IMG/VR virus record: IMGVR_UViG_3300030106_003321
Span: 1 to 26,569 of that record
Source of the DNA: a virus
Direction: 5' to 3' (one strand)
DNA length: 26,569 nt
The position numbers and the translations under genes are program-made. Under the pieces are notes generated by a model that made no database searches, was not told the DNA's origin, and worked only from the letters and a program-made list of their open reading frames with translations. Shown here in pieces: positions 5,898 to 25,656 of the stretch (within the stretch, counting starts at the first letter, position 1; the number at the start of each line of letters is the position of its first letter).

Positions 5898-6130
5898 CCG
5901 TGATCCTTTCTAAGCTCTCCGCGTATAATACTTTATAGAGAATATAAGAATAAATGCTTTTAATAATTTCTCTCGTGTCCTCATTATCTTACTAATAACT
6001 AATACGTTTTCTATTACTTCCTAGAAACCCACAGACTCTAGTAGTTTCGAGAGGTAGAGAACGATATTATTATTTCTATTACTCTATTAGCCTTCTAAGT
6101 TAGTTTTTTTAAAAAATTTTTATTTTTAAA
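5898..6130 (-). promoter_or_regulatory. Upstream region of the helicase gene; copy A of a diverged duplicated regulatory region
   Basis: This gene-free AT-rich stretch is homologous in reverse orientation to 25410-25656. A 25-bp block at 5991-6015 is identical to the complement of 25522-25546 (core on the - strand AACGTATTAGTTATTAGT). A second identical block, TTCTATTACTCTATT at 6074-6088, matches the complement of 25450-25464. The spacing between blocks is 58 bp here and 57 bp there. A long A/T tract lies at 6103-6128. Read in the helicase direction, the order is A/T tract, block 2, block 1, ATTTATTCT segment, Shine-Dalgarno, start. A promoter or operator is the simplest reading. An origin with an A/T unwinding tract is an alternative. 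Confidence 0.65.
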
Positions 6131-6215
6131 ATAGACTAATACGAAATAGGAGAAACCTACTGCTACGTTTCGTAACTACAGGTTTTCAAAATACAGCTAT
6201 AGGTTACTAAAGTCC

Positions 6216-6245
6216 TTTACTTTGCAAAGAAGCGTAGGCTAAGAT
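6216..6245 (+). promoter_or_regulatory. Promoter-like TTTACTTT element P1
   Basis: TTTACT at 6216-6221 is followed after 18 nt by TAAGAT at 6240-6245, and the first early gene starts 28 nt further on. The CCTTTACTTT box recurs before six other operons or positions in the window, which makes it more credible than a single sigma70-like match. From 6131 to 6215 I see no gene; a small TACG-TTT-CGTA inverted repeat lies near 6163. Confidence 0.6.
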
Positions 6246-6273
6246 AGTTCGGGTTATAAAGGAGAAAGTATAT

Positions 6274-6615
6274 ATGACCGTTTTTATTGTCCAAGAAGTG
6301 TCTGGACGTAATGTAATTCCAGCCAAGAAGTATGGCGATTTAAAACTGCTTCTCCCTGAAAGGACGAATCTTATGCTTTCTACTGCCCCGACAGTACGGA
6401 AGTTGCGTCGTGAGCTATCTGAATATAGTGATGAGGATTACCTACTCTTAATGGGGGATCCTGCTGCTATTGGTTTAGCCTGTGCGGTTGCGGCGTCTAC
6501 TAATCAGGGTAGGTTTAAGATTCTTAAATGGGATAGGCAAGAATCCGTGTATTATCCCGTCAATATTAACCTCTTTGAGAAAGGGGAGACAGAGTTAGGA
6601 GAACTACATGTCTGA
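6274..6615 (+). CDS. Small conserved-looking early phage protein, unknown function (113 aa)
   Basis: First gene of the rightward early region, preceded by ATAAAGGAGAAAG. The protein is a compact alpha/beta chain: MTVFIVQEVSGRNVIPAKKYG at the N-terminus, a strand with LLPERTNLMLS, a helix with PTVRKLRRELSEYSDEDYLLLMGDPAAIGLACAVAA, and an aromatic C-terminus with FKILKWDRQESVYYPV. The GDPAAIGLA segment followed by GRFKILKWDRQ has the look of a conserved phage family that sits at the head of replication operons, but I cannot name it or a reaction. It overlaps the next gene by 8 bp. Confidence 0.8.
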   Translation: MTVFIVQEVSGRNVIPAKKYGDLKLLLPERTNLMLSTAPTVRKLRRELSEYSDEDYLLLMGDPAAIGLACAVAASTNQGRFKILKWDRQESVYYPVNINLFEKGETELGELHV

Positions 6616-7183
6616 CTTGACATTTGAAGAACTAACAGGGACAGCTTCGGTAGAAGAGTGGACGGAGCAGTCCTCGAATGAGGAACTCGCTTCCATATCC
6701 GGTCTAGCGCAACAGCTCTTAGTTGTTCAAAAGGATATAGAAGAAAAGAAATTAGAGTTAAAGGAACTAGAGAACCAGTTTCGACAGATTTCTGAAAGCT
6801 CTTTACCAGAAGCATTGCAGTCGGCAAATTTATCTGAGATCGTTTTAAGTGATGGAACCAAACTTAGCGTATCTCCCTTTTATAAGGGACATATCTCGGA
6901 GAAAAACCGACCCGCTGCATTAGATTGGCTTATGCAAAATGGCCACGGGGGGCTTATTAAGAACGAGATTTCATTAAAGTTCGGTAGAGATGAGGACGAA
7001 CGTGCTCAGGATACTATCGCCTCGTTACAACAACGAGGTCTTTCACCGAGCGTTAAGCAAGGAGTTCATGCACAGACACTTAATGCGTTTGTGAAGGAGC
7101 AGCTCACGAACGGAAAGGATCTTCCTTCCGAAATATTCGGGATATACGTGGGGTCCCGCGCCAAAATAGAGAGAAAGAGGTAA
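6608..7183 (+). CDS. Phage replication-operon protein with N-terminal coiled coil (191 aa)
   Basis: Starts inside the end of the previous gene. Residues about 30-60 form a probable coiled coil (QQLLVVQKDIEEKKLELKEL), followed by a domain around LSDGTKLSVSPFYKGHI and then RPAALDWLMQNGHGGLIKNE. The C-terminus contains VHAQTLNAFVKEQLTNGKDLP and IFGIYVGSRAKI. This layout is familiar from small phage proteins encoded next to an SSB-like gene, which suggests a DNA-binding or replication accessory role. No catalytic motif is visible and the function is unassigned. It lies 5 bp upstream of the SSB-like gene. Confidence 0.75.
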   Translation: MSDLTFEELTGTASVEEWTEQSSNEELASISGLAQQLLVVQKDIEEKKLELKELENQFRQISESSLPEALQSANLSEIVLSDGTKLSVSPFYKGHISEKNRPAALDWLMQNGHGGLIKNEISLKFGRDEDERAQDTIASLQQRGLSPSVKQGVHAQTLNAFVKEQLTNGKDLPSEIFGIYVGSRAKIERKR

Positions 7184-7188
7184 CTCAT

Positions 7189-7977
7189 ATGGCTACGAAA
7201 GAAGTAGCGAAAGCTACAGCAGGAGAGGTACTTGTCTTAGATGATGATGACCTTTTATCTGAAGGAACTGGTTTAGAGTCGGTTGGTACTGAAGACTATG
7301 CTCTACCTTTCCTCCGGATAATTCAGTCGGGTTCGCCACAGTTAAAAAAGAGCGATCCGAATAAATATATTGACGGTGCTGAAGAGGGAATGTTGTTTAA
7401 CACTCTTACGAACGAGTACTACAAGGGTGACGAAGGGGTGGCCGTGATCCCCTGTGCTTATACCAAGAAGTACATCGAATGGGTTCCGATTAATAAGGGA
7501 GGAGGATTCGTACGAGACGATCATTCTGCCACGGTTATGAACCAGACTAAGAAGAGCGAAAATGGAAAGTTTCTATTACCTAATGAGAATGAGATTGTAG
7601 AAACATCTCAGTACTTTCTTATACTGGTAGAAGACGAAGAGAATCCTCAACAGATTCTCCTTAGTTGCACGTCGACCCAATTAACGTTTGCTAGACGTTG
7701 GAACACCATGCTGCGCACTGCACAGGTAAAAAATAAAGAAGGCACTTCGGTTCTCGCACCTATGTTTTCTTACATTTACCGTTTAAAGACGGCAGCACAG
7801 TCAAATAACTTCGGGACTTGGCATGGATTATCCATTGAACGAGAACGACCAACCCCATTGCCTATAGCACGAATAGCGAAAGACTTCATGGTAGCCGCAA
7901 GAGCTGGTGAAGTAGAAGTAAAACAAGAGGGTGCTCTCGACGAAGTTGAGGATGAGAATTCGAAAATACCATTTTAA
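7189..7977 (+). CDS. Putative single-stranded DNA-binding protein with SSB-like acidic IPF tail
   Basis: The 262-aa protein has an acidic N-terminal linker (LVLDDDDLLSEG), a central beta-rich region (about residues 30-220) that could be an OB-like fold, and an acidic C-terminus ending DEVEDENSKIPF. Bacterial SSB proteins end in a closely similar acidic tip (DDDIPF in E. coli), which docks onto partner proteins, so the tail supports an SSB role. Motifs in the core include EDYALPFLRIIQSGSPQLK, GVAVIPCAYTKKYIEW and LLSCTSTQLTFARRWNTML. It sits directly before the primase and helicase genes. The core fold was not confirmed, so SSB is inferred from tail, size and context. Confidence 0.7.
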   Translation: MATKEVAKATAGEVLVLDDDDLLSEGTGLESVGTEDYALPFLRIIQSGSPQLKKSDPNKYIDGAEEGMLFNTLTNEYYKGDEGVAVIPCAYTKKYIEWVPINKGGGFVRDDHSATVMNQTKKSENGKFLLPNENEIVETSQYFLILVEDEENPQQILLSCTSTQLTFARRWNTMLRTAQVKNKEGTSVLAPMFSYIYRLKTAAQSNNFGTWHGLSIERERPTPLPIARIAKDFMVAARAGEVEVKQEGALDEVEDENSKIPF

Positions 7978-7996
7978 TAAAGTAGAAAGGTGATAG

Positions 7997-9520
7997 ATGT
8001 CGTTACAAGAAGAATTTGCCCAGCGTTTTGCTGGGCTACGACACGCATACAGTATCTTCACCCCTACTAAGGAGACACGAGAAGACGGCAAGGCCAAAGG
8101 TAAAAATGTAACTATTGCTCAAACGCTCAATAAGGATGAGTTATTAGAGTTATGGAAAAAACACCTAGAAGGCACACAGAGTATTGGAATCGTACCGATT
8201 GATGAAGATAACTGCTGTGTATGGGGAGCCATAGATGTTGATGAGTATCCACTGGATCTAAAGGGTCTAGCGAAGAAGCTCAAAAAATTTAAACTCCCTC
8301 TTGTCGTTTGTCGCTCTAAAAGTGGGGGAGCACACATATTTCTGTTTGTGTTCGATCCTGTTCCTGCTTCCACGATGCAGCGCAAACTACGTCAAGTAGC
8401 TGCTGCAATCGGCTTTGGACAAGCTGAGATTTTTCCTAAACAAACAAAGCTGTTACTCGAGAGAGGAGATCGAGGCAGCACTCTCAACATGCCTTTCTTT
8501 GGAGGCGAAAACTCCACTCGATATGCCTTTAGTCCAACGGGTAATGTCTTTAGTCCACGTGAGTTTTTAGATTACGTTGAAACACTTGTTTTAACTGAGG
8601 ATGAACTAGATAAGTTAGAAACCGCACCAGTATTAAAAGAAATGGAATGGCTTGACTCTTCACCACCCTGTTTAGAGCATCTAGTAGCACAGGGGTTTCC
8701 TAAAGGAATGAGAAACTCAGGGCTGTTTAACGTGGGAGTGTTCTTACGTAAAAAGTTTCCTGACGATTGGGAAAACCGCCTAGAGCAAGTAAACCATGAG
8801 CACATGCAACCGACACTTAGCTCTCAAGAAGTTTTAGGAGTGGCTAAACAGTTAAAGAAGAAGGACTACTTCTATCGCTGTAATGACCAACCGATTGCGA
8901 GTCATTGTAATAGTCCTCTTTGTCGTACCCGTAAATATGGCATTGGAGCCTCCGGTGGTACACCTCTCTTCAGTAACCTAACGAAACAGAACAGTGATCC
9001 ACCTATCTGGTTTCTTGATGTGGAAGGTGGGCGTCTTGAATTGGAGACAGAGGAGTTACTTAACCAGACACGGTTCCAACGTAAGTGTATGGATGTAATG
9101 AATTTAATCCCACCTAAAGTAAGGGATAACGTTTGGAGACAGATCATTCAACAGCTGTTGGACACACTTACTATTATTGAAGTTCCTAAAGATGCGTCTA
9201 CCACGGGGCATTTTAATGAGTTACTAGAAACTTTTTGCACCGAGCGTCCTGCACGAGAACGCGATGAACTTTTACTTGGTAAGCCGTGGTCGGATAAAGG
9301 AAGAACGTACTTTCGATTAGCTGATTTAATGGACTATCTCTACCGGAAGAACTTTCGTGACTATCCCCGCAACAAACTCACCGCTCGATTACGTGAGCTT
9401 GGGGGCGAGTCTTTTTTCTTTAACATTAAAGGGAAGGGTACAAATGTATGGCATATCTCTGAGTATGAAACTCAGATTGAACCACACGACCTCCCCGAAT
9501 TTAATGAAAACCCAATCTAA
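7997..9520 (+). CDS. Archaeo-eukaryotic-type (AEP) DNA primase
   Basis: This would make the primers for phage DNA replication. The N-terminal 200 residues carry AEP catalytic motifs: AIDVDEY with D80 and D82 as metal ligands, the basic SxH-type motif CRSKSGGAHIFLF (S109, H113), and AEIFPKQ (K148). The pattern resembles the AEP family described in TOTE-type systems and many phages. A helical C-terminal part (about 230-290) is followed by a Cys cluster in YRCNDQPIASHCNSPLCR, likely a Zn or Fe-S site. The last 170 residues may be a winged-helix-like tail. The ATG has GAAAGGTG upstream. It is followed, with a 1-bp overlap, by the UvrD-like helicase. No DnaG-type zinc/Toprim primase was seen in the window. 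Confidence 0.85.
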   Translation: MSLQEEFAQRFAGLRHAYSIFTPTKETREDGKAKGKNVTIAQTLNKDELLELWKKHLEGTQSIGIVPIDEDNCCVWGAIDVDEYPLDLKGLAKKLKKFKLPLVVCRSKSGGAHIFLFVFDPVPASTMQRKLRQVAAAIGFGQAEIFPKQTKLLLERGDRGSTLNMPFFGGENSTRYAFSPTGNVFSPREFLDYVETLVLTEDELDKLETAPVLKEMEWLDSSPPCLEHLVAQGFPKGMRNSGLFNVGVFLRKKFPDDWENRLEQVNHEHMQPTLSSQEVLGVAKQLKKKDYFYRCNDQPIASHCNSPLCRTRKYGIGASGGTPLFSNLTKQNSDPPIWFLDVEGGRLELETEELLNQTRFQRKCMDVMNLIPPKVRDNVWRQIIQQLLDTLTIIEVPKDASTTGHFNELLETFCTERPARERDELLLGKPWSDKGRTYFRLADLMDYLYRKNFRDYPRNKLTARLRELGGESFFFNIKGKGTNVWHISEYETQIEPHDLPEFNENPI

Positions 9521-11013: not shown

Positions 11014-11020
11014 AAACTCC

Positions 11021-11075: not shown

Positions 11076-11972
11076 ATGGCCTCAATTAGAAAGACCTTAG
11101 ATATCAATGTGAACGATAGTAAAAATACTCGCATGGATATTGCCAATGGCAACATGCTAGGAAACTGGCGTCCTGATGAAATAGCTCACATGACGCGCTA
11201 CGATAAAATATCTTCGCTGTGCATAGAAGAAGCTGCTCGATTAAACCGTCCTATTGACACTCTCGAAGCAGGATGCGGGGAACTCTGGGTTTTACGCAAT
11301 TTATATAAAGCGTACACCGTAAAGAAGTCGGACATTATCAACTCTTATGTGGGAGTGGATATCGATCCTGCTGTCTTACAAGAGAAGAACGGGTATCACA
11401 GTCCAACTGGACTGGTTAGGGATTCACAATGGTTTGCAAACTTTAATGGATCCCTCTACATCCAAGATCTCACGACCCATTCGGAATTTAAAGTACCCGA
11501 CGAAAGTATTGATTTCTTTTGGAGTACTGAAGTAATAGAACATATGCGACCTGAATTTGTTTCTGGTTGGTTAGATGACGTACACCGTACCTTACGTCCT
11601 GGTGGTCTAATTTATATTTCTACTCCTAACAGTGATGGTTCTAATAAGAAACTTCCAAAGGACCATATATACGAGTGGGGATTTGAAGAGCTTCAGTATG
11701 AGCTTATTGCGCCTCCTCGGAACTGGGTTCTCAAGTCAGTGGTGGGTACGTTTTGCCAGCTTCCTCGTTTAAGGAAAGCAATGGAACATGACCTTAAACC
11801 GTCGGTAACTATGGGAGAAGAGGAGGAATATCCAGGACAACCCCGCTGGTATGACGATCAGTTTGAGTTACTGGAAGAACGATTTGGAAGACATTTTCTT
11901 CGTGTGGTTGGGGCAACCTTCTTCCCAGAAATATCTAATAACTGTGCTTGGACGCTAAGAAAAAGGTCATGA
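11076..11972 (+). CDS. Class I SAM-dependent methyltransferase
   Basis: This 298-aa protein has a Rossmann-type SAM-binding core. Motif I is TLEAGCGELWVLRNLY near residue 62, motif II is YVGVDIDPAVL with an acidic residue for the ribose, and motif IV is SIDFFWSTEVIEHM. The segment DVHRTLRPGGLIYISTPNSD is typical of the UbiE/small-molecule-type core. It lacks the DPPY/NPPY motif of N6-adenine or N4-cytosine DNA methyltransferases and the PC motif of 5-methylcytosine enzymes, so a restriction-type DNA methylase is unlikely. It heads the operon that continues with the hmdU kinase helical-domain protein and the thymidylate synthase homologue. A role in modifying a nucleotide, or a tailored base or its precursor, is therefore possible but unproven. 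The preceding TAGAAAGGAG is a strong ribosome-binding site. Confidence 0.85.
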   Translation: MASIRKTLDINVNDSKNTRMDIANGNMLGNWRPDEIAHMTRYDKISSLCIEEAARLNRPIDTLEAGCGELWVLRNLYKAYTVKKSDIINSYVGVDIDPAVLQEKNGYHSPTGLVRDSQWFANFNGSLYIQDLTTHSEFKVPDESIDFFWSTEVIEHMRPEFVSGWLDDVHRTLRPGGLIYISTPNSDGSNKKLPKDHIYEWGFEELQYELIAPPRNWVLKSVVGTFCQLPRLRKAMEHDLKPSVTMGEEEEYPGQPRWYDDQFELLEERFGRHFLRVVGATFFPEISNNCAWTLRKRS

Positions 11973-12922
11973 AGTTTATTGAACAAGAACTTTCCCGTTA
12001 TCTTTATTGGATAGAGGAGCGAGAAAGAATACGTATTGTAAAAGAAGATAAAAAGGAACCACCCCCTTGGACAAGGGACCCTATCCTTAAAGAATTTAAA
12101 TTCTGTCAAGTTTTTCGCGAGGATGATCGAACCACGCGTTGGTTTCGGGCTCACATACGGAATCCCCTTTCGGCCAGTCCGGAGGTCATCATGGCCACGA
12201 TCATCTTTCGCTTTTTTAATCTTATAGAAACGGGGCGTACTCTACTAGAACACAATCTCCACTTAGAGTGGGATCGAGAGAAAGCAATCGAAGAAGTGTT
12301 CAAACAACCCAAGTGGGTTACAGGTGCTTATATAGTTAAGACACCTAATCGAATGAATAAAGTGACGGGGGTTGCTGAGTGTATCTCTCATATCTGGGCT
12401 GATAGACAACGTTTAATTTTGGCTTTAGAAGAAATCTCTACTCTACAAGAAGCGTGGAAATATCTTTTACCGTATCCCTACATCGGTCCCTTTGTTGCTT
12501 ACGAACTGGTAACTGATTTAAGACACACCTATGTACTAGATGAAGCTACAGATATTCTTACATGGGGAAATCCTGGACCAGGAGCCATGAGAGGGTTGAA
12601 TCGACTGACAGGTAGACCCCTTACGTTTACAAGAAAGACGCATGACTGGAACAGTGAAATGAATTGTCTTTATCAGATTTGTAGGAACCGATTATGTCTT
12701 CCTGGAATGACTGTACAGGATAAACATTACCGGATGCCTTTTGAAATGCGAGAGGTTGAAGGTGGGCTGTGTGAATTTGATAAGTACTCTAGGATCTTGA
12801 AAGGAGAAGGTCGAACACGAAGTGTGTATAACTATAAAGAAGCAGATAGGCCGCTTATTGAGGATTTAGAAAGAGGAGAAAGTAGATGGGCCAACTCAAG
12901 CAGCATTGCCAAAACGCCCTAG
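11969..12922 (+). CDS. 5-hmdU DNA kinase helical-domain (HMUDK_hel / aGPT-PPlase-like) protein
   Basis: I chose ATG 11969, which overlaps the methyltransferase stop as ATGA; an upstream in-frame TTG at 11948 is less likely. The 317-aa protein contains PPWTRDPIL at 32-40, FCQVFREDDRTTRW at 45-58, GNPGPGAMRGLNRL (a helix-hairpin-helix-like GPG turn) near residue 200, and LCEFDKYSRILKGEGRTR near the C-terminus. I recognise this series as the helical domain, related to DNA glycosylase HhH folds, found in phage thymine-hypermodification enzymes. In such pathways 5-hydroxymethyl-dU in DNA is phosphorylated and then derivatised. No P-loop (GxxxxGKS/T) kinase motif is present here, so it may be a stand-alone subunit or act at another step. 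Its neighbour, the dUMP hydroxymethylase-like gene, supports the pathway. Confidence 0.78.
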   Translation: MKFIEQELSRYLYWIEERERIRIVKEDKKEPPPWTRDPILKEFKFCQVFREDDRTTRWFRAHIRNPLSASPEVIMATIIFRFFNLIETGRTLLEHNLHLEWDREKAIEEVFKQPKWVTGAYIVKTPNRMNKVTGVAECISHIWADRQRLILALEEISTLQEAWKYLLPYPYIGPFVAYELVTDLRHTYVLDEATDILTWGNPGPGAMRGLNRLTGRPLTFTRKTHDWNSEMNCLYQICRNRLCLPGMTVQDKHYRMPFEMREVEGGLCEFDKYSRILKGEGRTRSVYNYKEADRPLIEDLERGESRWANSSSIAKTP

Positions 12923-13107
12923 AACATAGGGGGGATGAAGTAATGAACTGCTATGGAGATTTTTTACAGGGGGTTATGAAAAACCACTCTGTTCCTCATT
13001 CTTACGAGGATGCACTGAAGCATGTAGCGAACACATTGGGAATGTACTTGTTTGAAGTGCGTTATGTGATTGAGCAAAGAACGGAGAATTTTTATGACGA
13101 CTATTAA
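12886..13107 (+). CDS. Small helical protein of the modification operon, unknown (73 aa)
   Basis: It overlaps the previous gene by 37 bp and the next by 14 bp, and GAGGAGAAAG precedes its ATG, which together support translation. The sequence is helical with LKHVANTLGMYLFEVRYVIEQ near the C-terminus and no recognisable motif. A later internal Met (MNCYGDFLQG, residue 20) is an alternative start. Function is unknown; context suggests an accessory to base modification. Confidence 0.6.
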   Translation: MGQLKQHCQNALEHRGDEVMNCYGDFLQGVMKNHSVPHSYEDALKHVANTLGMYLFEVRYVIEQRTENFYDDY

Positions 13108-14140
13108 AGTTAACAATGTCAATGACGCCTTACGGTTAGGGGTGGATTTCTTCCAATGGGAAGGAAACTACCGAGAACAAGACAGCCGTAATGGGATTAC
13201 GTTGGAAGCTCTTGAACCTGTAATAACTACGTACTCTAAACCATGGGAAAGGGTCTTGTTATTCCCAGCACGAGACGCTAACCCTTTCTTTCATTTAATA
13301 GAATCTATTTGGATGCTTGGAGGATCTCAACGGGTAGGGCAACTATCACATTTTAATTCAGGTATGCAACAGTTTTCTGATAATGGGCACACTTTAAATG
13401 GGGCTTATGGTTTTCGTTGGTATCACCAGTTTAAAGGACGGGATCAAGTACGAGCATTGATTAAGGTATTAAAATCTCACCCTGAGAGCCGTCGAGCTGT
13501 TCTGCAAATGTGGGACCCCTTGGTGGACTTAGGAAGCAGCAGTAAAGATATTCCTTGCAACACCAATATCTTCTTTAAAGTTCGAGACAATAAGTTGCAG
13601 ATGACTGTATGCAATCGGTCTAATGACATGGTATGGGGAGCGTATGGTGCTAACGCAGTACATATGTCAGTCCTACAAGAATACATTGCTAAATCACTAG
13701 ACGTTGAAATAGGACCATATCACCAGATTAGTGACAGTTTCCATGTGTACAAGAATAAGCAGTGGAAAACCTTATGTAACACGCACCTTTCTAAATTGAA
13801 GTACCCAGAAAACCTCGTTCCTGTTGTAAAGAACGCAACTACCTTCATTATGGATTGTCATATGTTTTTAGCTCACCTACCCGTAGGGATAGAGCTCCAA
13901 TTAGATTTCGAAAACAAGGTAGATTGGAATCAATTTGATAACCCTATTTTTCCTACAGTGCTGCGACCTATGGTCAGAGCCTTTATAGAACATAAACATA
14001 GAGAGTACACCAAAGCCTATGAAAGTATTCGACAAATTGAAGCAGAAGATTGGCAGGAAGCCGCCTTCTTCTGGATTAAAAAACGACAGCTCGCCCGAGA
14101 AAATAAACCAGATTCTGGAACAGCCAATGACTACAACTAA
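13094..14140 (+). CDS. Thymidylate synthase-family enzyme, probable dUMP hydroxymethylase
   Basis: The ATG at 13094 has ACGGAGAA upstream; an in-frame TTG at 13070 lacks a comparable site. The 348-aa protein is clearly ThyA-fold. E70 in HLIESIW corresponds to the general-acid region, RR 133-134 in ESRRAVLQMWDP to the phosphate-binding pair, C155 in IPCN to the catalytic Cys, and R175-S176 in CNRSND to the phosphate site. N187 sits where the uracil-binding Asn lies, and H217/Y219 in SFHVYK bind the nucleoside. Retention of Asn at 187 favours dUMP over dCMP. Phage members of this family next to hmdU kinase-type genes usually make 5-hydroxymethyl-dUMP. Plain thymidylate synthase activity cannot be excluded. 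It works on free nucleotides in the cytoplasm and would supply hmdU for incorporation into phage DNA. Confidence 0.85.
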   Translation: MTTIKVNNVNDALRLGVDFFQWEGNYREQDSRNGITLEALEPVITTYSKPWERVLLFPARDANPFFHLIESIWMLGGSQRVGQLSHFNSGMQQFSDNGHTLNGAYGFRWYHQFKGRDQVRALIKVLKSHPESRRAVLQMWDPLVDLGSSSKDIPCNTNIFFKVRDNKLQMTVCNRSNDMVWGAYGANAVHMSVLQEYIAKSLDVEIGPYHQISDSFHVYKNKQWKTLCNTHLSKLKYPENLVPVVKNATTFIMDCHMFLAHLPVGIELQLDFENKVDWNQFDNPIFPTVLRPMVRAFIEHKHREYTKAYESIRQIEAEDWQEAAFFWIKKRQLARENKPDSGTANDYN

Positions 14141-14465
14141 ATGGGAAGAGATGAAAGAGATAGCTCAGGGAGACCTATTGCAGCTTATTAAAGCGGAGAA
14201 GTCTTACGGAGATTCCTGGAAACAGCGCGGAGGCACAGGAGCGTTTATGATGCTCGCCCGTAAATTCGACCGGATTGAGAAACAATCTAAAAGTGTCAAC
14301 TGGGATATTTTCGAAGCTGCTCAGATGTATAACGGGGAGGAAGGGGTGCTTGATGATATAGGTGATTTACGACGGTATCTATTATTAGTAGAGCACGAAA
14401 TACGAGTTCAAACTCGAGAACGCACACAGGAGTCCATAGAATGGAAAGAAGAAAAGACCGAGTAG
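14127..14465 (+). CDS. Nucleotide modification associated domain 1 (Nmad1)-like protein (112 aa)
   Basis: ATG 14127 (MTTTKWEEM) overlaps the end of the thymidylate synthase homologue by 14 bp; the frame is open further upstream but only inside that gene. The sequence SYGDSWKQRGGTGAFMMLA followed by RKFDRIEKQ, and then the acidic GVLDDIGDLRRYLLLVEHE, matches what I know of the small phage domain named Nmad1 from its repeated association with base-modification operons. It is all-alpha and has acidic residues reminiscent of MazG-like nucleotide-binding helices, but no reaction is established. Its place after the hmdU genes fits the family's usual company. Confidence 0.72.
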   Translation: MTTTKWEEMKEIAQGDLLQLIKAEKSYGDSWKQRGGTGAFMMLARKFDRIEKQSKSVNWDIFEAAQMYNGEEGVLDDIGDLRRYLLLVEHEIRVQTRERTQESIEWKEEKTE

Positions 14466-14647: not shown

Positions 14648-16503
14648 CACAACAACTACCTTTAATCACACCGGAGAGTGACTGGGCAGCACCAGAACTT
14701 CTCCCACAGTTTAGTGATAATGAGCTACTCGCCATTGACCTAGAGACCTGTGACCCTTCCCTCATGAACCGAGGACCAGGATGGGCCACCGGAGACGGGT
14801 TCGTAGTAGGGATTGCAATCGCCTCGGATAAATGGAGCGGTTATCTACCGATTCGGCACGAAGGTGGTGGGAATCTTGAGACGGAACTGGTGTTGCGGTG
14901 GTTTAAGCGCATGATCTCTACTCACCGAGGACCATTAGTATTTCACAACGCACTCTATGATGTAGGTTGGCTTAAACGAGAAGGGGTTGACATCAAGTGT
15001 CCTATCTACGACACCATGTTTGCGGCTCCTCTTCTTGATGAGAATCGACACGGCTACTCACTCAACGCCCTCGGAAAAGATTACTGTGCTTCCGAAAAAG
15101 ATGAGTCCTTGTTGGAAGAAGCCGCGAAAGCCTGGGGAGTCAACACAAAGTCTGGGTTGTACCAATTGCCTGCCAAATATGTAGGACCCTATGCTGAACA
15201 AGACGCCGTTCTCACTCTACAGCTTTGGAAACAGCTCTACCCTCGACTTCAAGAAGAAGCCCTAGATAAAATTTTCAAGCTCGAATGCGACTTAATCCCT
15301 TTACTTATAGAAATGCGATGGAAAGGGGTTCGCATTGATACTAGTCGAGCGGAGCAAGTAGGTATCGAACTTTCTAAGAAAGAACAACAGATCATGGTTG
15401 AGTTTCGACGGAAGTTTGGAACGACAGTAGAGATGTGGTCGAACGCCTCGATTCAAAAAGCCTTTGATTCTAATGGGATTTGGTATCCCAAGACAGAGAA
15501 GGGTATGGCGAGTTTTCAAGCCCCTTGGTTAGAGGCTCACGAACACGAACTGCCAAAGATGATCGTGCAAGCCCGTAAGTTAAACAAAGCTCGGACCACG
15601 TTCATCGATAAGATGATCTTGGAGCATAGTGTGGACGGTCGTATCCACGCAGAAGCCCACCCCCTACGGAACGATGGTGGGGGCACGGTGAGTGGACGGT
15701 TCAGCTATACGAATCCTAATCTACAGCAAGTTCCTGCACGAGACCCAGAGTTAGGACGTTTGATTCGTTCGCTGTTTCTACCAGAAGAAGGAGCCGAGTG
15801 GGGTATTTTCGACTACTCGCAACAAGAGCCAAGACTCACGGTTCACTATGCTTCTCAAATGGGATTGCAAGGAGCGGATGAAGCGGTTCGTGCCTATTCC
15901 GAGGACGGTGCTGACTTTCATCAGATTGTAGCAGACATGGCTAATATTCCACGCAAACAGGCTAAGAATATCAACCTAGGATTAACGTATGGAATGGGTC
16001 GGACCAAGCTCTTAAAAGAATTGGGAGTAGAAGAATCAGCAGCGGGGGAGCTGTTGGAACAATACCATAAAAAGGTTCCATTTATTCGTGCACTACAGGA
16101 CCAGTGCGCAAGAGTCGCGGTCGAGCGGGGCTATATCAAAACACTTGGAGGACGCCGTTGTCGTTTTGATTATTGGGAGCCTTCCTTTGGAGAAGGTTCA
16201 CCGCTACGGGAAGATGAGGCAAGAGAACGATACGGGGATGGAGTGAAACGTTCCTATACATATAAGGCACTCAATCGACTGATCCAAGGATCGGCAGCAG
16301 ACATGACTAAACTCGCTATGCGAGATCTATGGAAAGAGGGCTACGTACCACACTTACAAATACACGACGAGCTAGATTATTCGATAAGCTCAAAGCAAGA
16401 GGGCAAGTTGATTATGGATATGATGTCAAATTGTGTGGAACTTTTAGTTCCATTAGTAGTGGACGCCGAGTATGGAGAAACATGGGGGGATGCAGCAGAA
16501 TGA
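14623..16503 (+). CDS. polA: Family A DNA polymerase (PolA type) with 3'-5' exonuclease domain
   Basis: This is the replicative polymerase candidate, 626 aa, without the 5'-3' exonuclease domain of bacterial Pol I. The proofreading domain shows Exo I AIDLETCDP (D39, E41), Exo II VFHNALYDVGWL and Exo III-like GPYAEQDAVLTLQLW. The polymerase domain shows SGRFSYTNPNLQQVPAR, motif A FDYSQQEPR (D397), motif B RKQAKNINLGLTYG (R444, K448) and motif C QIHDELDYS (H581, D582). The position equal to E. coli Phe762 is Leu452. The ATG overlaps the previous gene, and the following HTH gene starts in its TGA. Polymerases in such operons must accept modified thymidine triphosphates if the upstream pathway acts at the nucleotide level. 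Confidence 0.95.
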   Translation: MERGIKILTQQLPLITPESDWAAPELLPQFSDNELLAIDLETCDPSLMNRGPGWATGDGFVVGIAIASDKWSGYLPIRHEGGGNLETELVLRWFKRMISTHRGPLVFHNALYDVGWLKREGVDIKCPIYDTMFAAPLLDENRHGYSLNALGKDYCASEKDESLLEEAAKAWGVNTKSGLYQLPAKYVGPYAEQDAVLTLQLWKQLYPRLQEEALDKIFKLECDLIPLLIEMRWKGVRIDTSRAEQVGIELSKKEQQIMVEFRRKFGTTVEMWSNASIQKAFDSNGIWYPKTEKGMASFQAPWLEAHEHELPKMIVQARKLNKARTTFIDKMILEHSVDGRIHAEAHPLRNDGGGTVSGRFSYTNPNLQQVPARDPELGRLIRSLFLPEEGAEWGIFDYSQQEPRLTVHYASQMGLQGADEAVRAYSEDGADFHQIVADMANIPRKQAKNINLGLTYGMGRTKLLKELGVEESAAGELLEQYHKKVPFIRALQDQCARVAVERGYIKTLGGRRCRFDYWEPSFGEGSPLREDEARERYGDGVKRSYTYKALNRLIQGSAADMTKLAMRDLWKEGYVPHLQIHDELDYSISSKQEGKLIMDMMSNCVELLVPLVVDAEYGETWGDAAE

Positions 16504-16877
16504 AAGGTATCAGTGACCAGCGAGCACAAGAGATGCGAGAGAAGTACCGCAAAATGTACGCACTCTACTCTACAGGAGACTTCACTCTAGCTGCCATTGG
16601 AGATAAGTTCGGTCTCACGAGACAACGCACATGGCAAATCATTACGCGCTGCAAGCTCGGAGAAGGAAACTATTATTTCGGAGAGCAGGCAGCTCGAGTG
16701 ACTTGGCGATTATTAAAGAAACAATTTGAAGACCCCGAAGAAGCTGAAGAAAAATTCATGGAGTGGCTTCAGGAGAATGATGTTCGGGTTATTCGAAACA
16801 ATCGACGCGCAGCACCACACACAGGTTGGAAAGACGATGCCCAAAGAGTCGCTTCTCTGGAAACAACTAAGGGATAA
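16500..16877 (+). CDS. Helix-turn-helix DNA-binding protein (125 aa)
   Basis: ATG 16500 overlaps the polymerase stop as ATGA, which fixes the start; upstream in-frame extension lies inside the polymerase gene. Residues 28-50, FTLAAIGDKFGLTRQRTWQI followed by ITR, read as a sigma-70 region 4-type HTH (A-x-x-G-x-x-x-G-L-T-R-x-R). The C-terminal half contains a helix with DPEEAEEKFMEWLQENDVRV. It may be a phage transcription regulator or an adaptor of host RNA polymerase, but no other sigma domains are present. It is coupled to the polymerase and overlaps the nuclease gene by 41 bp. Confidence 0.8.
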   Translation: MKGISDQRAQEMREKYRKMYALYSTGDFTLAAIGDKFGLTRQRTWQIITRCKLGEGNYYFGEQAARVTWRLLKKQFEDPEEAEEKFMEWLQENDVRVIRNNRRAAPHTGWKDDAQRVASLETTKG

Positions 16878-21095: not shown

Positions 21096-21247
21096 GTGAG
21101 CGATGCCCCGAGTGTGAAAAAGGTACTTTACTCTACCAACCCGCCGAGGATGAAACCTTGGCGGGACGGGACACCCGCAGACAGTACGAAGAACTCTGGT
21201 TCTGCAACCATTGTGACGCAACCTTCAAACCTTTCGAGCTTTGTTAA
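21092..21247 (+). CDS. Small zinc-ribbon protein (51 aa)
   Basis: ATG 21092 overlaps the previous TGA (ATGA). The product has CPEC at 5-8 and CNHC near residues 39-42, a CxxC-x30-CxxC spacing typical of a zinc ribbon, with RRQYEELWFCNHCDATFKPF at the C-terminal side. Such mini zinc ribbons often contact nucleic acid or RNA polymerase, but no target can be named. A longer overlapping frame at 21096-21278 is a shadow of this gene. It is the last gene of this operon, before element P5. Confidence 0.78.
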   Translation: MSERCPECEKGTLLYQPAEDETLAGRDTRRQYEELWFCNHCDATFKPFELC

Positions 21248-21262
21248 GCCTCGGCGTACTGC

Positions 21263-21312
21263 TTTACTTTCGCCTTAGTCTTAAGTAAGCTATTAATACG
21301 GGTACGCCCGTA
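21263..21312 (+). promoter_or_regulatory. Promoter-like TTTACTTT element P5 with 5'-end hairpin
   Basis: TTTACT at 21263-21268 is followed after 17 nt by TAAGCT at 21286-21291. Transcription should start near 21297, exactly where a hairpin begins: TACGGG (21297-21302), loop TACG, CCCGTA (307-312 of the same thousand). The leader then reads GATTTTACCGAAAATTAG before AAAGGAG. The same arrangement occurs at P6. Confidence 0.65.
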
Positions 21313-21346
21313 GATTTTACCGAAAATTAGAAAGAAAGGAGAACTA

Positions 21347-22129
21347 ATGCTTAAGGTAACAAAACTTTACCAAAACGAAGACAGAGGCTTGCCGTTCGTA
21401 CGCAATGAGCTAGGAAAAGCTCTCGAACCAATAGCCGGAATTTTTTCAGTATTGAAACACGCGAGAGGAAAAGAGTTCCTGAACGTGTGGAAATCCGAAT
21501 TTACTCACGACAATATTACCGATTGCTGGGTTGGAAAGACATACCCGGATATGAAAGGTCAGGTCAGCTACGGAGTTGACGACGGTGCTTGGTTCGAAAA
21601 TCTCGCCACTTACGACCGTGTATACAACATGAATGACGAAGACTGGAAAACTGTTAATGACGGTGCGTTGCGAGTCGAACTACAGTACCAAGAGACAGTT
21701 GGGAGAGGAATGGTGATAATGAGTCCTCAAGGCTTACGAAAGCTACGCGATAGCGAATCTCAAGCCCATCAAGACTTGTATCGTGGATTAACGCGGTTAG
21801 CTGACGGTTCGATAGACGAGCGGTTCGAAATAAGGGATACAGTCATTAATAAAGAATTCGTAGGATACGAGGATGGTGACTTCAAAAAGAAAGAGTTCAA
21901 AAAAGTAACGAAGCCAAATTACTATATTTGGAACTACATCACCGACGAAAGCGGTACGTTCCTAACATACCAAAAATGGTACTACTACGACGAGGAAGGC
22001 GAAATACACTGGAGCGAGAACGATAGGATGTGGGTAGACAACCATGAATGCAGTCAGCAACCAGTAGAGCTTATCGAGTTGTTAATAGAAGACTTACTAT
22101 CGGAGATCAGAGCAAACTTTCTGATCTGA
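21347..22129 (+). CDS. Hypothetical early protein (260 aa)
   Basis: The largest of the right-hand accessory genes, first after element P5, with AGAAAGAAAGGAG upstream. The sequence is rich in Asp, Glu, Lys and Tyr. Recognisable landmarks are GRGMVIMSPQGLRKLRDSES, FVGYEDGDFKKKEFKKVTKP and YLTYQKWYYYDEEGEIHWSE-like aromatic strands (read TFLTYQKWYYYDEEGEI). No transmembrane segment, signal peptide or catalytic motif is seen. Codon use looks like that of its neighbours. Function is unknown; timing is probably early. Confidence 0.78.
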   Translation: MLKVTKLYQNEDRGLPFVRNELGKALEPIAGIFSVLKHARGKEFLNVWKSEFTHDNITDCWVGKTYPDMKGQVSYGVDDGAWFENLATYDRVYNMNDEDWKTVNDGALRVELQYQETVGRGMVIMSPQGLRKLRDSESQAHQDLYRGLTRLADGSIDERFEIRDTVINKEFVGYEDGDFKKKEFKKVTKPNYYIWNYITDESGTFLTYQKWYYYDEEGEIHWSENDRMWVDNHECSQQPVELIELLIEDLLSEIRANFLI

Positions 22130-22172
22130 GTGGTTCTCCGAGCGGCCTTACGAGGCCGCTTCTGGAACTACT
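22104..22172 (+). promoter_or_regulatory. Two consecutive RNA hairpins in an intergenic leader
   Basis: Hairpin 1 is AGATCAGA (22104-22111) with TCTGATCT (22120-22127), at the end of the upstream gene. Hairpin 2 has an 8-bp outer stem AGTGGTTC/GAACTACT (22129-22136 with 22165-22172, one G-U), an internal loop, and a 9-bp inner stem AGCGGCCT/AGGCCGCT plus a G-U, capped by TACG. The leader CCGAAACTAGAAAGGAG follows, as after the P5 and P6 hairpins. No TTTACTTT box precedes it, so it may be a processing or attenuation site rather than a promoter. Confidence 0.65.
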
Positions 22173-22200
22173 TAACCGAAACTAGAAAGGAGAAATAACA

Positions 22201-22542
22201 GTGCCTAGAGAAGTATCAATTAGATTTAATTCAGCGGATAAACTGACTTGGGAACCTGTCAGCGATGGCCACATGGATCAAGCAATGGACGACACGATTG
22301 ATCTTGCACTAGTTGTAGAGAGGGCGATAAGCGATCACATAGAAACTGAAGAAGCCCTCCTGGATTGGTCGGGGATAGATGGAATGCACGCGGGGGATGT
22401 AGAAGGAGTTCACGAACCCGTTGCGCTATTTCTTTATTCGATGGAAGACGACGAGTGGGTATATATAGCTCATTTTATATATGAAGTAACGCATCAGTGT
22501 TTTTTGTTTCGCCATAGAAAGGAGAAAGTAAATGCGGGATAA
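22201..22542 (+). CDS. Hypothetical acidic early protein (113 aa)
   Basis: Start is GTG 22201 with CTAGAAAGGAGAAATAACA upstream. The product starts MPREVSIRFNSADKLTWEPV and has DQAMDDTIDLALVVERAISD, then VALFLYSMEDDEWVYIAHFI with alternating hydrophobic residues. It is acidic throughout, of the kind that can mimic DNA or bind host proteins, but this is speculative. No family is recognised. It overlaps the next gene by 11 bp. Confidence 0.7.
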   Translation: MPREVSIRFNSADKLTWEPVSDGHMDQAMDDTIDLALVVERAISDHIETEEALLDWSGIDGMHAGDVEGVHEPVALFLYSMEDDEWVYIAHFIYEVTHQCFLFRHRKEKVNAG

Positions 22543-22906
22543 AACTATAGAAAAGTTAAACGAAGAAGCGAGAACGAAAAAATCGCAAGAGTTAGCACGA
22601 CAATACTACGAAAAACTGTTTGATAGAATAGATAAATATCATTCCATTACGGGTCTCTCAGAAGAATTGGACTCTAATTCACCGTTCTGGGAAGATAAGA
22701 CCCTCGTTCCTAACGAGGTCGGACCTTATATGATCAAACACAAGAGCCTGCCCTATTGGCAAGACGGCATAACAACACTTGTCTATATGGATGACAATTA
22801 TACCTATGTGGCCAACTATGTGGTTTGTTACGACGGACACGCCGCACCGCCGCAAATGTGCTCAGTCCTTAGACTCGATAAAAAAGTAGAAGAAGAGAAA
22901 AACTAG
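22532..22906 (+). CDS. Hypothetical early protein (124 aa)
   Basis: ATG 22532 follows TAGAAAGGAGAAAGTAA, inside the end of the previous gene. A charged N-terminal helix (MRDKTIEKLNEEARTKKSQE) precedes ARQYYEKLFDRIDKYHSITG and a beta-rich C-terminal half with TTLVYMDDNYTYVANYVVCY. No family recognised. Its first bases, TGCGGGAT after the initial A, match those of the following gene. Confidence 0.7.
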   Translation: MRDKTIEKLNEEARTKKSQELARQYYEKLFDRIDKYHSITGLSEELDSNSPFWEDKTLVPNEVGPYMIKHKSLPYWQDGITTLVYMDDNYTYVANYVVCYDGHAAPPQMCSVLRLDKKVEEEKN

Positions 22907-22921
22907 AAAGGAGAAACATCA

Positions 22922-23311
22922 GTGCGGGATTTAAAAATACCGGAAGAGTTGGGACGGCTATACAAAGTCTATTTTGAATATAGGCACGAGCTGCAACCGA
23001 AGGATGATGTGTTCGTGTGTATTTGCCGAGCGGAGCAAATAGGGAAAATTGAGGAACATTATTCAAACCTTTGGTCAGAGATTGTCGAAGGCAATCTCTA
23101 CTCGCTTGACGGGTTTACTCTTGAACAAATAACACCTGACCCCGTATTACAGGGTTGGGAGTCTTTCGATGGAGTGATACTCGAGGATATTAAAACGGGT
23201 GAGCGAGTCTACCATGAAGACCGTAGGGGAGAAACTGTGATGAAGGCTTTCGAACCTATGGAAGAATCGGTCCAGCTTTTGAAAGACCTGACCATAAGAA
23301 AAGAGAGCTAG
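22922..23311 (+). CDS. Hypothetical early protein (129 aa)
   Basis: Start GTG 22922 is preceded by CTAGAAAGGAGAAACATCA. The product has YKVYFEYRHELQPKDDVFVC, ICRAEQIGKIEEHYSNLW, and FDGVILEDIKTGERVYHEDR. It looks like a mixed alpha/beta protein without membrane segments. No function can be assigned. It ends 1 bp before the next start. Confidence 0.7.
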   Translation: MRDLKIPEELGRLYKVYFEYRHELQPKDDVFVCICRAEQIGKIEEHYSNLWSEIVEGNLYSLDGFTLEQITPDPVLQGWESFDGVILEDIKTGERVYHEDRRGETVMKAFEPMEESVQLLKDLTIRKES

Positions 23312-23312
23312 G

Positions 23313-23492
23313 GTGAGTAATACAGAGGAAATCCCAAAAGATCACCTCTATGAGGCGATCTGCTCTATACGGCAGATGAGCAACAACCCAGATCTATCTG
23401 TAGATATTGCTGTGGAATTAACCGAAATTACGGATAGACTTAGGGCCATTCACGATAACCTACTTGAGGGACAGCAAAAATATAAAGAATAG
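23313..23492 (+). CDS. Small hypothetical protein, GTG start (59 aa)
   Basis: An uninterrupted 60-codon frame begins with GTG 23313, with AAGAGAG about 5 nt upstream and one base after the previous stop. The product (starting VSNTEEIPKDHLYEAICSIR) continues with LSVDIAVELTEITDRLRAIH and ends QQKYKE; it would be an all-alpha, acidic peptide. Codon use and tight packing support translation. Its last base is the first base of the structured RNA described next. Confidence 0.6.
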   Translation: MSNTEEIPKDHLYEAICSIRQMSNNPDLSVDIAVELTEITDRLRAIHDNLLEGQQKYKE

Positions 23493-23646
23493 GGTCTTGG
23501 ACTAGGTAAACGGCAGCCCAAGCGCCGGTGAAATTGTCTCAATTGTTCAAGACTCTTATCCTTAGTTGAGGCAAACTTGGGACCGTTCTCAGTCGGCCAG
23601 ATTAGAAGGAGCGCAAACACCCCTGGCAAACTGGTCGGCTGAGGAC
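23492..23646 (+). ncRNA. Candidate structured RNA or structured leader (about 155 nt)
   Basis: The stretch has no convincing gene but folds well by hand. Domain 1: GGGTCTTGGA (23492-23501) pairs with TTCAAGACTC (23546-23555), 10 bp with two G-U pairs, enclosing CGGC/GCCG and AATTG-TCT-CAATT hairpins. A short CCTT/GAGG hairpin follows. Domain 2: 23585-23600 pairs with 23631-23646 in an unbroken 16-bp stem with three G-U pairs and a 30-nt loop. G-U pairs work in RNA but not as DNA cruciform pairs, which favours RNA-level function. It lies 25 nt before the next start and could be an sRNA, a riboregulatory leader or an unusual terminator. Confidence 0.5.
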
Positions 23647-23671
23647 ACTTATTTTATAGAAAGGAGATAGT

Positions 23672-24112
23672 ATGAAAGAAGAAACGATAGCATTTATGGT
23701 GGGCGACCACATAGACACCGAGTATACGAGCTTATGTGGCTACGTTCATTGCGACTACCGAGATCTAGTGCGAGTCTTCGGACCTCCCCTCGAAGAAAAT
23801 TGGGACTTTAAGAGTACTCACCACTGGTTCATAAAAATCGTACCACACGGACCCGTGATGCATATCTACAACTGGATGAACGGACCCGTGATAGGTACTC
23901 CAATCACCTCCATTACCCGTTGGAATGTTGGGGGAAAAGAAGAAGCCCCACTCGAGTACTTAGAGAAAATACTCGACTTCTACGACACCGATGCTCAAGT
24001 CATTCCCTACTCGATAGGCAAGCTAGACACGTCGGACAAATTCTTTAAACTAGAACTAAGCGAAAAAGACCAACGCATACAAAAAGCAATATCCGCAATG
24101 CTTAGAGACTAG
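23672..24112 (+). CDS. Hypothetical early protein (146 aa)
   Basis: The ATG follows TATAGAAAGGAGATAGT and a 179-nt untranslated structured region. The product contains MVGDHIDTEYTSLCGYVHCD, the pattern YRDLVRVFGPPLEENWDFKS and THHWFIKIVPHGPVMHIYNW. The FGPP...STHHWFI order recalls small phage proteins with a beta core, but I cannot name a family. The C-terminal 30 residues are a charged helix (SDKFFKLELSEKDQRIQKAI). It is the last gene before element P6. Confidence 0.75.
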   Translation: MKEETIAFMVGDHIDTEYTSLCGYVHCDYRDLVRVFGPPLEENWDFKSTHHWFIKIVPHGPVMHIYNWMNGPVIGTPITSITRWNVGGKEEAPLEYLEKILDFYDTDAQVIPYSIGKLDTSDKFFKLELSEKDQRIQKAISAMLRD

Positions 24113-24119
24113 ACCCAAA

Positions 24120-24145
24120 GCCACTCGGCTTCTTCGCGGGGTGGC
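24120..24145 (+). terminator. Hairpin before element P6, possible terminator
   Basis: GCCACTC (24120-24126) pairs with GGGTGGC (24139-24145), 7 bp with one G-U, and a 12-nt loop. No clear U-run follows. It ends 7 nt before the TTTACTTT box, so it may separate two transcripts. Confidence 0.3.
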
Positions 24146-24152
24146 GTACTCC

Positions 24153-24203
24153 TTTACTTTCGGGTTATGGCTAAGTAAGCTAATACTACGGCTAACGCCG
24201 TAG
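24153..24203 (+). promoter_or_regulatory. Promoter-like TTTACTTT element P6 with 5'-end hairpin
   Basis: TTTACT at 24153-24158 is followed after 17 nt by TAAGCT at 24176-24181. The expected start near 24187 coincides with a perfect hairpin, CTACGGC (24186-24192), loop TAAC, GCCGTAG (24197-24203). The leader ATTTTTACGAAAACTAG and AAAGGAG follow. Together with P5 this is the best conserved promoter-plus-leader pair. Confidence 0.65.
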
Positions 24204-24232
24204 ATTTTTACGAAAACTAGAAAGGAGCAAGA

Positions 24233-24625
24233 ATGAACGATCTGAAAGATATTACCATGGAACAAATGGCGACTACTGGGAAACTGGAAACGCGCCAAAT
24301 GTCCACCGAGCTAGTAGATGTTCTGAGCCGAGTGACTAACCCTCTCCCCGAGGGAGAGTTAGATGGCCCCGATATGTCTATGGAATTATTGGCCCTGACC
24401 GATATGGAACCAGAAGAAAACATTTGGGGATTGCCTGGTAACGAAGAACACCAGAAAACACCCGCCGCAACGGTTCCAGTCAGCGAGTGGCGGCAAAGAG
24501 GGGGCGAAGCAGATCCTGGTGAATGGACTATCCTGATGTACCGACACCCCTCAACGGGTAGTACGAAAATCACAGGCTTGATTTACGATAGCCATTGCTA
24601 CCCATACCTAGTAAAGATTATCTAA
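24233..24625 (+). CDS. Hypothetical early protein (130 aa)
   Basis: First gene after element P6, with CTAGAAAGGAGCAAGA upstream. The N-terminal two thirds is acidic and Met-rich with low predicted structure (MSTELVDVLSRVTNPLPEGE). The C-terminus, GEWTILMYRHPSTGSTKITG then LIYDSHCYPYLVKII, reads as a small beta sheet. No family recognised. Confidence 0.7.
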   Translation: MNDLKDITMEQMATTGKLETRQMSTELVDVLSRVTNPLPEGELDGPDMSMELLALTDMEPEENIWGLPGNEEHQKTPAATVPVSEWRQRGGEADPGEWTILMYRHPSTGSTKITGLIYDSHCYPYLVKII

Positions 24626-24639
24626 GAAAGGAGAACGAA

Positions 24640-24744
24640 ATGACCCAGTACGAAAAGAGAAAACAACTTGAAGCCCAACTCGCCGTGCACAAATACATTT
24701 GCTGCGCGGTTCTTGGATTTATTGTTGGATACCTCGTAGGATAA
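24640..24744 (+). CDS. Micro-membrane protein (34 aa)
   Basis: ATG 24640 follows TAAGAAAGGAGAACGAA. The 34-residue product has a charged N-terminal helix (MTQYEKRKQLEAQLAVHKY) and a C-terminal hydrophobic segment ICCAVLGFIVGYLVG with a small-residue GxxxGxxxG pattern typical of packed transmembrane helices. It is probably a tail-anchored inner-membrane peptide. The strong ribosome-binding site is the main evidence for translation. Confidence 0.6.
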   Translation: MTQYEKRKQLEAQLAVHKYICCAVLGFIVGYLVG

Positions 24745-24752
24745 GGATCGAC

Positions 24753-24995
24753 ATGAGAGTTTGTATAGAAACAAAACAAGGAGAGATAATGGAAATCTGT
24801 ACTTGTGCGAACGAAGAGAATGTTGTTCGAGCAATTATAGAGTCATACGAAACAATATGGCAGAACACCATTAACTCAAACGATCCTTCCAAAGGAACGT
24901 ACACGTCAAAAGACCCAATAGTAAATAATTGGGAGGGGAGCACTACACTTGTAGAAAACGTAGCAACCCCTGGAGAGTTTGATATATTTGAATAA
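24753..24995 (+). CDS. Hypothetical small protein (80 aa)
   Basis: ATG 24753, 8 bp after the previous stop with ATAAGGATCGAC upstream, is preferred over extension further upstream inside the micro-protein gene. The product begins MRVCIETKQGEIMEICTCAN, a beta-hairpin-like start, then NVVRAIIESYETIWQ and an acidic tail. No family recognised. Confidence 0.65.
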   Translation: MRVCIETKQGEIMEICTCANEENVVRAIIESYETIWQNTINSNDPSKGTYTSKDPIVNNWEGSTTLVENVATPGEFDIFE

Positions 24996-25011
24996 TAGAA
25001 AGGAGAGCCAT

Positions 25012-25374
25012 GTGAAAGATGAAAGTGACATGGACTACGGAATTTGGGCCTCGATGGATGAGGATGAGAAAGCGGAATGGGAAAAAGATAGCCCTGACCC
25101 ACTCCGAGCCCAGTTTTGGATCAAAAAGCAAGACATCCCGAAAACAGACCTCCTCCTATTTCAAGCAAATGGAGGATGTGGGGCCGATAACGAAGGCTGG
25201 ATGCTTGAATACCTTAACGAACACAGCGGCAACACCTCAGGGATTGCCAAAATAACCTTCGACCTGAACATATGGGAACTCTGCGAAGTTGAGTTCAACG
25301 ACGGGGAACGCTACAAGTGTAGCTACCAACGAATCGGGGATGGCTATGACTTAGGGGAGAAACTCAAACCCTGA
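25012..25374 (+). CDS. Hypothetical early protein, GTG start (120 aa)
   Basis: GTG 25012 follows ATAGAAAGGAGAGCCAT and fixes the start; the ATG at 25010 is followed directly by TGA in its frame. The product is acidic (DMDYGIWASMDEDEKAEWEK), with FWIKKQDIPKTDLLLFQANG and WELCEVEFNDGERYKCSYQR. It is the last gene of the early region, before an AT-rich gap of 282 bp. Function unknown. Confidence 0.7.
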   Translation: MKDESDMDYGIWASMDEDEKAEWEKDSPDPLRAQFWIKKQDIPKTDLLLFQANGGCGADNEGWMLEYLNEHSGNTSGIAKITFDLNIWELCEVEFNDGERYKCSYQRIGDGYDLGEKLKP

Positions 25375-25409
25375 AACAAGGCCATTTATTGAATGTATAT
25401 GTTTATCTG

Positions 25410-25656
25410 AGAAATAAAACTTTTTTTATTTTTTTCAACAGAATAGACCAATAGAGTAATAGAAGTAATAGAATCGAGCTGTGAGTCTCAAGGAGCTTGG
25501 ATCGTGGGTTTTTCAGGAAAGAATAGAAAACGTATTAGTTATTAGTTCTGAAAGAGAGAAAAGGAAAGAGAGGGTACGAGCAGAATCTTTTTAAACATAA
25601 AAAAGATATTTATTCTAAAATATACTTGTCGCTGAACACAGCCCTCGGATTCTGGA
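25410..25656 (+). promoter_or_regulatory. Upstream region of the terminase gene; copy B of the duplicated regulatory region
   Basis: This gene-free stretch matches the helicase upstream region (5898-6130) in reverse orientation. Shared blocks include 25450-25464 (AATAGAGTAATAGAA), 25522-25546 (core AACGTATTAGTTATTAGT, 25 of 25 identical), a GTGGGTTT segment before it, and an ATTTATTCT segment near 25609. Order and spacing relative to the downstream gene are alike (block 1 ends 110 bp before the start here, 93 bp before the helicase start). It likely holds a late-type promoter distinct from the TTTACTTT class. Confidence 0.65.
25412..25435 (+). terminator. AT-rich hairpin with T-run, candidate intrinsic terminator of the early region
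   Basis: AAATAAAA (25412-25419), loop CTTT, TTTTATTT (25424-25431), then TTTT. An 8-bp A/T stem is weak, but the T-run and the position 37 nt after the last early gene fit termination. The same place corresponds to the A/T tract of the duplicated upstream region, so it may have another role. Confidence 0.35.

Follow-up and report, generated by a model that had tools for sequence, protein, structure and literature searches.

The closest described systems to the locus analysed here are found in phages SPP1 and Mu. The SPP1 origins oriL and oriR lie about 13 kb apart, with oriL inside gene 38, and are bound by gp38 (PMC6316719). Late transcription in the same phage needs an unidentified early phage factor, and its late promoter PL1 has a canonical -10 and an atypical -35 (PMC6316719). 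In Mu, Pm is an activator-needing promoter, and the binding site of Mor is a single 16-bp dyad with its centre at -43.5 (PMC4390567). Here we compare with these systems two related upstream regions in the window, by which we mean the whole 26.6-kb stretch of DNA analysed (IMGVR_UViG_3300030106_003321), a genome fragment of a tailed, uncultured marine phage. The preliminary description of this DNA knew of no described example of such an arrangement, a statement that was too strong, since SPP1 oriL/oriR, with their paired direct repeats and AT-rich tract, are a precedent.

The left part of the window holds the end of the late block on the plus strand, and then a lone minus-strand gene for an SNF2-type helicase (5897-4455). 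Rightward runs a replication block encoding Pam3 gp32/33/34-like proteins, an AEP primase, a UvrD helicase and a cassette of methyltransferase, 5-hmdU DNA kinase and thymidylate-synthase-like genes; PolA comes next, followed by a small HTH protein, a nuclease, DUF932 and several small ORFs, until the gene for the small terminase subunit, terS, starts at 25657; the labels early and late are taken from gene content and not from transcripts. The nearest protein relatives among named phages are 023Pt_psg01, DSL-LC04 and the HTVC023P-type marine podoviruses HTVC027P and HTVC023P, and for this reason membership of the Pseudomonas Yuavirus group, taken from the first DNA matches, was dropped. A cassette at 11076-14465, composed of the methyltransferase, the 5-hmdU DNA kinase (PF18723), a dUMP-hydroxymethyltransferase-like thymidylate synthase and one further gene, is present in five of five long clade contigs and in none of four outgroup phages, which suggests hypermodified thymidine in the DNA of the window phage. 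ORF 1337-3403, probably a virion protein, contains a 219-bp tandem duplication (1881-2318, 76% identical) plus several shorter repeats, and the C-terminal part of ORF 3403-4452 contains 15-bp GGGAGGACCACCAAT direct repeats (4089-4184).

When the regions upstream of the helicase and of the terminase were compared by gapped local alignment, they reached a score of 89, against a mean of 21.4 (sd 2.7) and a maximum of 36 in 500 dinucleotide shuffles. This was the top score among ten intergenic regions compared (from the window's ORF list), the runner-up pair being a promoter/RBS repeat at 21279/24113 with a score of 64. Moreover, an independent search recovered the same pair as arms of 40 and 45 nt, and another search found it with an E of 6e-15. 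The main elements of the preliminary description were borne out, namely an identical block of 25 bp (5991-6015 on the minus strand, 25522-25546 on the plus strand), an identical block of 15 bp (6074-6088, minus; 25450-25464, plus), their spacing of 58 versus 57 bp, and the same orientation of each copy relative to its own gene. The similarity covers about 150 bp (about 25394-25546 and 5991-6142); 5898-5990 and 25547-25656 have only short pieces in common. Neither of the outcomes that the preliminary description had set as refuting was seen: chance similarity of A/T-rich DNA was ruled out both by the shuffles, which score far below 89, and by conservation across the clade, where related phages carry the element at both sites, helicase and terminase.

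Table 1. Positions of the parts of the two elements and of neighbouring features in the window
Feature	Position	Strand	Basis or remark
Helicase-side A/T tract TTTTAAAAATAAAAATTTTTTAAAAAAACTAAC	6099..6131	-	within the window's least stable 80-bp duplex (start 6063)
Helicase-side array I CTAATAGAGTAATAGAAATAATAATA, three TAATAGA-type repeats, 8/9-bp steps	6065..6090	-	sequence
Helicase-side array II GTAATAGAAAACGTATTAGTTATTAG, one direct repeat and two inverted TATTAG half-copies	5992..6017	-	sequence
Helicase-side AGGACACGAG box, with weak conservation among helicase copies	5972..5981	-	sequence
Helicase-side -10-like GTATTATACG (TATTAT)	5922..5931	-	inferred promoter
Terminase-side A/T tract	25412..25439	+	within the window's second least stable 80-bp duplex (start 25396)
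Terminase-side array I CCAATAGAGTAATAGAAGTAATAGAA	25448..25473	+	sequence
Terminase-side array II GAATAGAAAACGTATTAGTTATTAG	25521..25545	+	sequence
AGGGTACGAG box, clade consensus AGGCCnYGAG	25571..25580	+	in most terminase copies it lies 49-50 bp before TATAnT
Terminase-side -10-like AATATACTTG (TATACT), no -35 match	25619..25628	+	inferred promoter
SNF2-type helicase, downstream of the helicase-side element	4455..5897	-	only convincing minus-strand gene of the window
Terminase small subunit (terS), opens the late block	25657..26190	+	protein matches
Divergent early promoter, CTTTACTT family (TTTACT..TAAGAT), facing the replication genes	6215..6246	+	repeated promoter family
Small sigma-region-4/Mor-like helix-turn-helix protein, candidate activator	16500..16877	+	family matches

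Read towards its gene, each copy presents the same order of parts (Table 1): an A/T tract (about 35 bp long), array I, a spacer, array II and a TATAnT box without a -35. Across the clade, array I consists of three TAATAGA repeats and array II of one TAATAGA with inverted TATTAG copies. The steps of 8 and 9 bp within array I were found in 36/36 helicase copies and 41/44 terminase copies, and three further terminase copies have an array I too degenerate to be scored by the script. From the third repeat of array I to array II the distance is 54-57 bp in helicase copies and either 55-56 or 66-67 bp in terminase copies, the longer class being longer by one helical turn; this class may stem from a single insertion, so that its members do not count as independent events. 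The length of the spacer is fixed while its sequence drifts, with an identity of 43-46% compared with 73-84% for array I (non-redundant copies with a 55/56-bp gap). Such distances put the two arrays on roughly the same side of the DNA helix, and units bound to them could thus touch across the spacer; a helix-phased protein assembly is open to direct test through the fixed-length, drifting spacer and its jump of one turn to 66-67 bp. Closer to the gene, most copies have TATAnT some 31-40 nt ahead of the start codon: it is usually at -36/-37 in terminase copies and near -34 in helicase copies, for which the automatic -10 calls are less reliable than for the terminase copies.

Among the loci fetched around 44 helicase and 80 terminase relatives, the element is found upstream of the helicase in about 40 copies and upstream of terS in about 50, all in a clade of uncultured marine phages. 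The two regions align, each facing its own gene, in 12/12 of the compared genomes that have both sites (the window included), with scores of 52-144 compared with null maxima of 28-35, and five contigs of 52-62 kb have clusters of TAATAGA at exactly two places each, in opposite orientation. Furthermore, when 2.9 million viral contigs were scanned for the exact triple repeat, 63 stretches matched: all those that reach a downstream gene lead into the helicase or terS, two stop at the edge of the stretch, and array I starts 181-192 nt before the helicase and 208-220 nt before terS. With all the classifiable ones among these 63 falling in the clade, the triple repeat is specific enough to serve as a binning marker. 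The same pattern has seven matches in bacterial and archaeal genomes (257 Gb), six of them without helicase or terminase downstream and the seventh ending before the downstream gene. Assigning a host from bacterial genomes with the triple repeat was rejected on these seven matches. The outgroup genomes searched, including ones with the same replication genes, have no TAATAGA arrays.

The pair of elements forms an inverted repeat because the helicase lies on the opposite strand and each copy faces its own gene. It had been proposed that such a repeat might let the early region flip by recombination, and in the window the inverted copies do match exactly over 25 bp and are similar over about 150 bp. 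Elsewhere in the clade, however, the arms have only short exact matches in common, and the divergent gp32-like neighbour is kept in 40/40 helicase loci and present in 0/80 terminase loci, with no inverted isomer seen at any of those 40 helicase loci in assemblies, which show the majority form only. The mean similarity within a site is 114 and 161, compared with 74 between the helicase and terminase copies of one genome and 62 across genomes, so that a copy is much closer to those at the same site in other genomes than to the second copy in its own, and the arms have not been homogenised. Constant gene order and stronger within-site similarity together mean that recombination between the arms leaves no trace, and we regard a flipping early region as hardly credible. 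No site-specific recombinase was recognised in Pfam and PHROG scans of the larger proteins of the window, a partial genome. The two copies within a genome show a weak co-evolution (mean 73.6 vs 61.6, permutation p 0.006) which a few genomes drive and which falls short of what gene conversion would need.

Directly observed are the element itself, its conservation, its spacing, its gene context and its uniqueness, and they make it probable, in our judgement, that a single cis-regulatory element is present here in two copies, each upstream of its own promoter, and serves an activator-dependent second transcription programme of helicase and terminase/late genes. The preliminary description had suggested a shared promoter/operator for a second programme, and this is the best-supported reading, with position, orientation and repeat spacing conserved; further support comes from a terminator before most terminase copies, from early genes having promoters of another family and from a sigma4/Mor-like factor that is specific to the clade and encoded in the early region. 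In terminase copies TATAnT is preceded at about 50 bp by AGGCCnYGAG and lacks a -35, helicase copies have TATAnT and a weaker box, and no sigma70-type pair with a good -35 was seen at this TATAnT. Promoters with a -10 and no -35 usually require an activator. A strong intrinsic terminator lies directly before 37/50 terminase copies, where it would close the early operon; it is absent before the terminase copy of the window. At the same time, early genes are preceded by promoters of a CTTTACTTTCG..TAARGT family (window 6215, 11020, 17226, 19251, 21262 and 24152), which is common to the relatives. Some features sit less easily with a promoter element: the distance from the arrays to the -10 is about 100 bp in terminase copies versus 73-86 bp in helicase copies, so that a tight protein-promoter geometry does not follow, the arrays, at about -100 and -170, are much more distant than is usual for activator sites of phages, and the A/T tracts are the weakest duplexes of the genome, a feature that a promoter does not need.

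For the activator itself, we propose from the sequence that a sigma4-like protein, or another early factor, may bind the arrays and turn on the helicase and the late genes. This candidate is encoded just after PolA in 6/6 clade genomes examined and was not found in four outgroup phages without TAATAGA arrays (HTVC027P being searched in part). The proposal is drawn from this co-occurrence with the arrays, from matches to activator families and from its HTH, whose consensus TLxEIGExFGxTKQRxWQIV closely resembles sigma70 region 4.2 (in the PDB alignment, TLEEVGKQFDVTRERIRQI). Matches to Sigma70_r4 were obtained for 21/23 members of the family (best 2.5e-8) and to the Mor Pfam family for 16/23 (best 3.7e-6), the protein being hardly larger than the HTH, and members also match PHROGs labelled late transcriptional activator. 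AlphaFold predicts confident helices, for which Foldseek gave no significant or confident fold match. The link to the arrays is one of co-occurrence, which several other clade-specific genes show likewise. If the reading of one shared, activator-dependent element is right, a DNA-binding phage factor encoded in the early region would occupy the TAATAGA repeats of arrays I and II and would recruit or activate the host RNA polymerase at the TATAnT promoter lacking a -35; the helicase and late genes would then switch on together, after the early genes under their own CTTTACTT..TAARGT promoters. Promoter function, late action, activation rather than repression and the identity of the binding protein are the parts of this scheme that we infer. 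A phage repressor that sits on the arrays and silences the helicase and the late genes during early infection would also fit the repeats and the gene context, as any sequence-specific regulator would, and KORA/MarR-type HTH families match some members of the sigma4-like family. Yet the Sigma70_r4 and Mor activator matches are stronger, the arrays lie well upstream of the -10 and do not overlap it, and the -35 is missing as in activated promoters, which leaves repression improbable.

The A/T tracts bring replication into consideration. According to the idea of two origins, already voiced in the preliminary description, the elements would be paired origins, or an origin and a fork-stalling site, with an initiator on the TAATAGA repeats and melting of the A/T tract. 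In favour of this idea, repeats beside an A/T tract are the anatomy of SPP1 oriL/oriR, each genome has exactly two elements, which flank the replication genes, and in 6/6 contigs tested the two 80-bp duplexes of lowest stability are those of their A/T tracts. On the other hand, both copies hold their orientation and distance to a gene start, which origins do not require, and the arrays are missing from outgroup phages that have the same replication genes. Moreover, scans of window proteins revealed no initiator-like or gp38-type family, with several small ORFs left unmatched, and the third-position skew has no consistent sign change at either site. On this analysis we hold paired origins to be unlikely, though the main rival. 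More doubtfully, the element might do both, with an array-bound factor that melts the A/T tract for replication and activates the adjacent promoter; if so, late transcription and the supply of helicase would be tied to replication at two sites bracketing the replication genes. The pair offers a case for asking whether paired repeat and A/T elements that flank phage replication genes are promoters, origins or both.

Among the nearest named relatives, HTVC023P, HTVC027P, 023Pt_psg01 and DSL-LC04 resemble the clade in their related primase, UvrD helicase, PolA and SNF2 helicase, the last of these encoded on the opposite strand, and differ from it in that they have no TAATAGA arrays and a short or no gap upstream of the helicase, and that the sigma4-like protein was not found in them (HTVC027P being searched in part). 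The cultured pelagiphage HTVC023P has five CTAGGAAA repeats (11680-11771), 95-186 nt upstream of terS, and no second cluster in its genome, hinting that arrays before terS may recur in related phages. Just downstream of terS, the window has tandem CTCTACTCTACTCGGTCTA and GACGGTTA repeats (26218-26255 and 26345-26435), and in contig 3300030331_000798, from a relative, five copies of CTCTACTC follow closely on the same gene (15421-15474); such repeats could be a packaging or regulatory site.

The comparison with SPP1 shows likeness in two respects. Its oriL/oriR also occur as two copies per genome, with direct repeats and an AT-rich tract, and PL1 is also a late promoter directly before terS, as the terminase-side element would be. 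Unlike oriL/oriR, the copies in the window belong to upstream regions that face a gene and have promoter-like sequences, and a gp38-like protein was not recognised; unlike our element, PL1 has no related second copy that we found elsewhere in SPP1. Since the SPP1 pac overlaps late promoters upstream of terS (PMC6316719), the terminase-side element might be thought to serve packaging, as a pac/cos signal that is duplicated at the helicase. A second pac 19 kb away is unexpected, however, and the conserved distance to the helicase start would stay unexplained, so we judge this highly unlikely.

Under the preferred reading of a shared activator-dependent element, the analysis offers a regulatory map for a clade of uncultured marine phages, with one element, two target genes, a candidate activator and a separate early promoter family. 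Against Mu, there is no activator dyad over the -35 position (centre about -43.5), the only proximal block being AGGCCnYGAG at about -60; the repeats form two arrays far upstream, at about -100 and -170, with the A/T tract further upstream, so that the geometry is not strictly that of Mor. In having short repeats, conserved spacing and few arrays per genome, the element is of the phage iteron type. It has in common with the middle and late promoters of Mu, which depend on Mor and C, a TATAnT-type -10 and the lack of a -35, shared by co-regulated later genes; and where Mu has a small phage-encoded HTH activator, the clade has a candidate family with Mor matches in 16/23 members.
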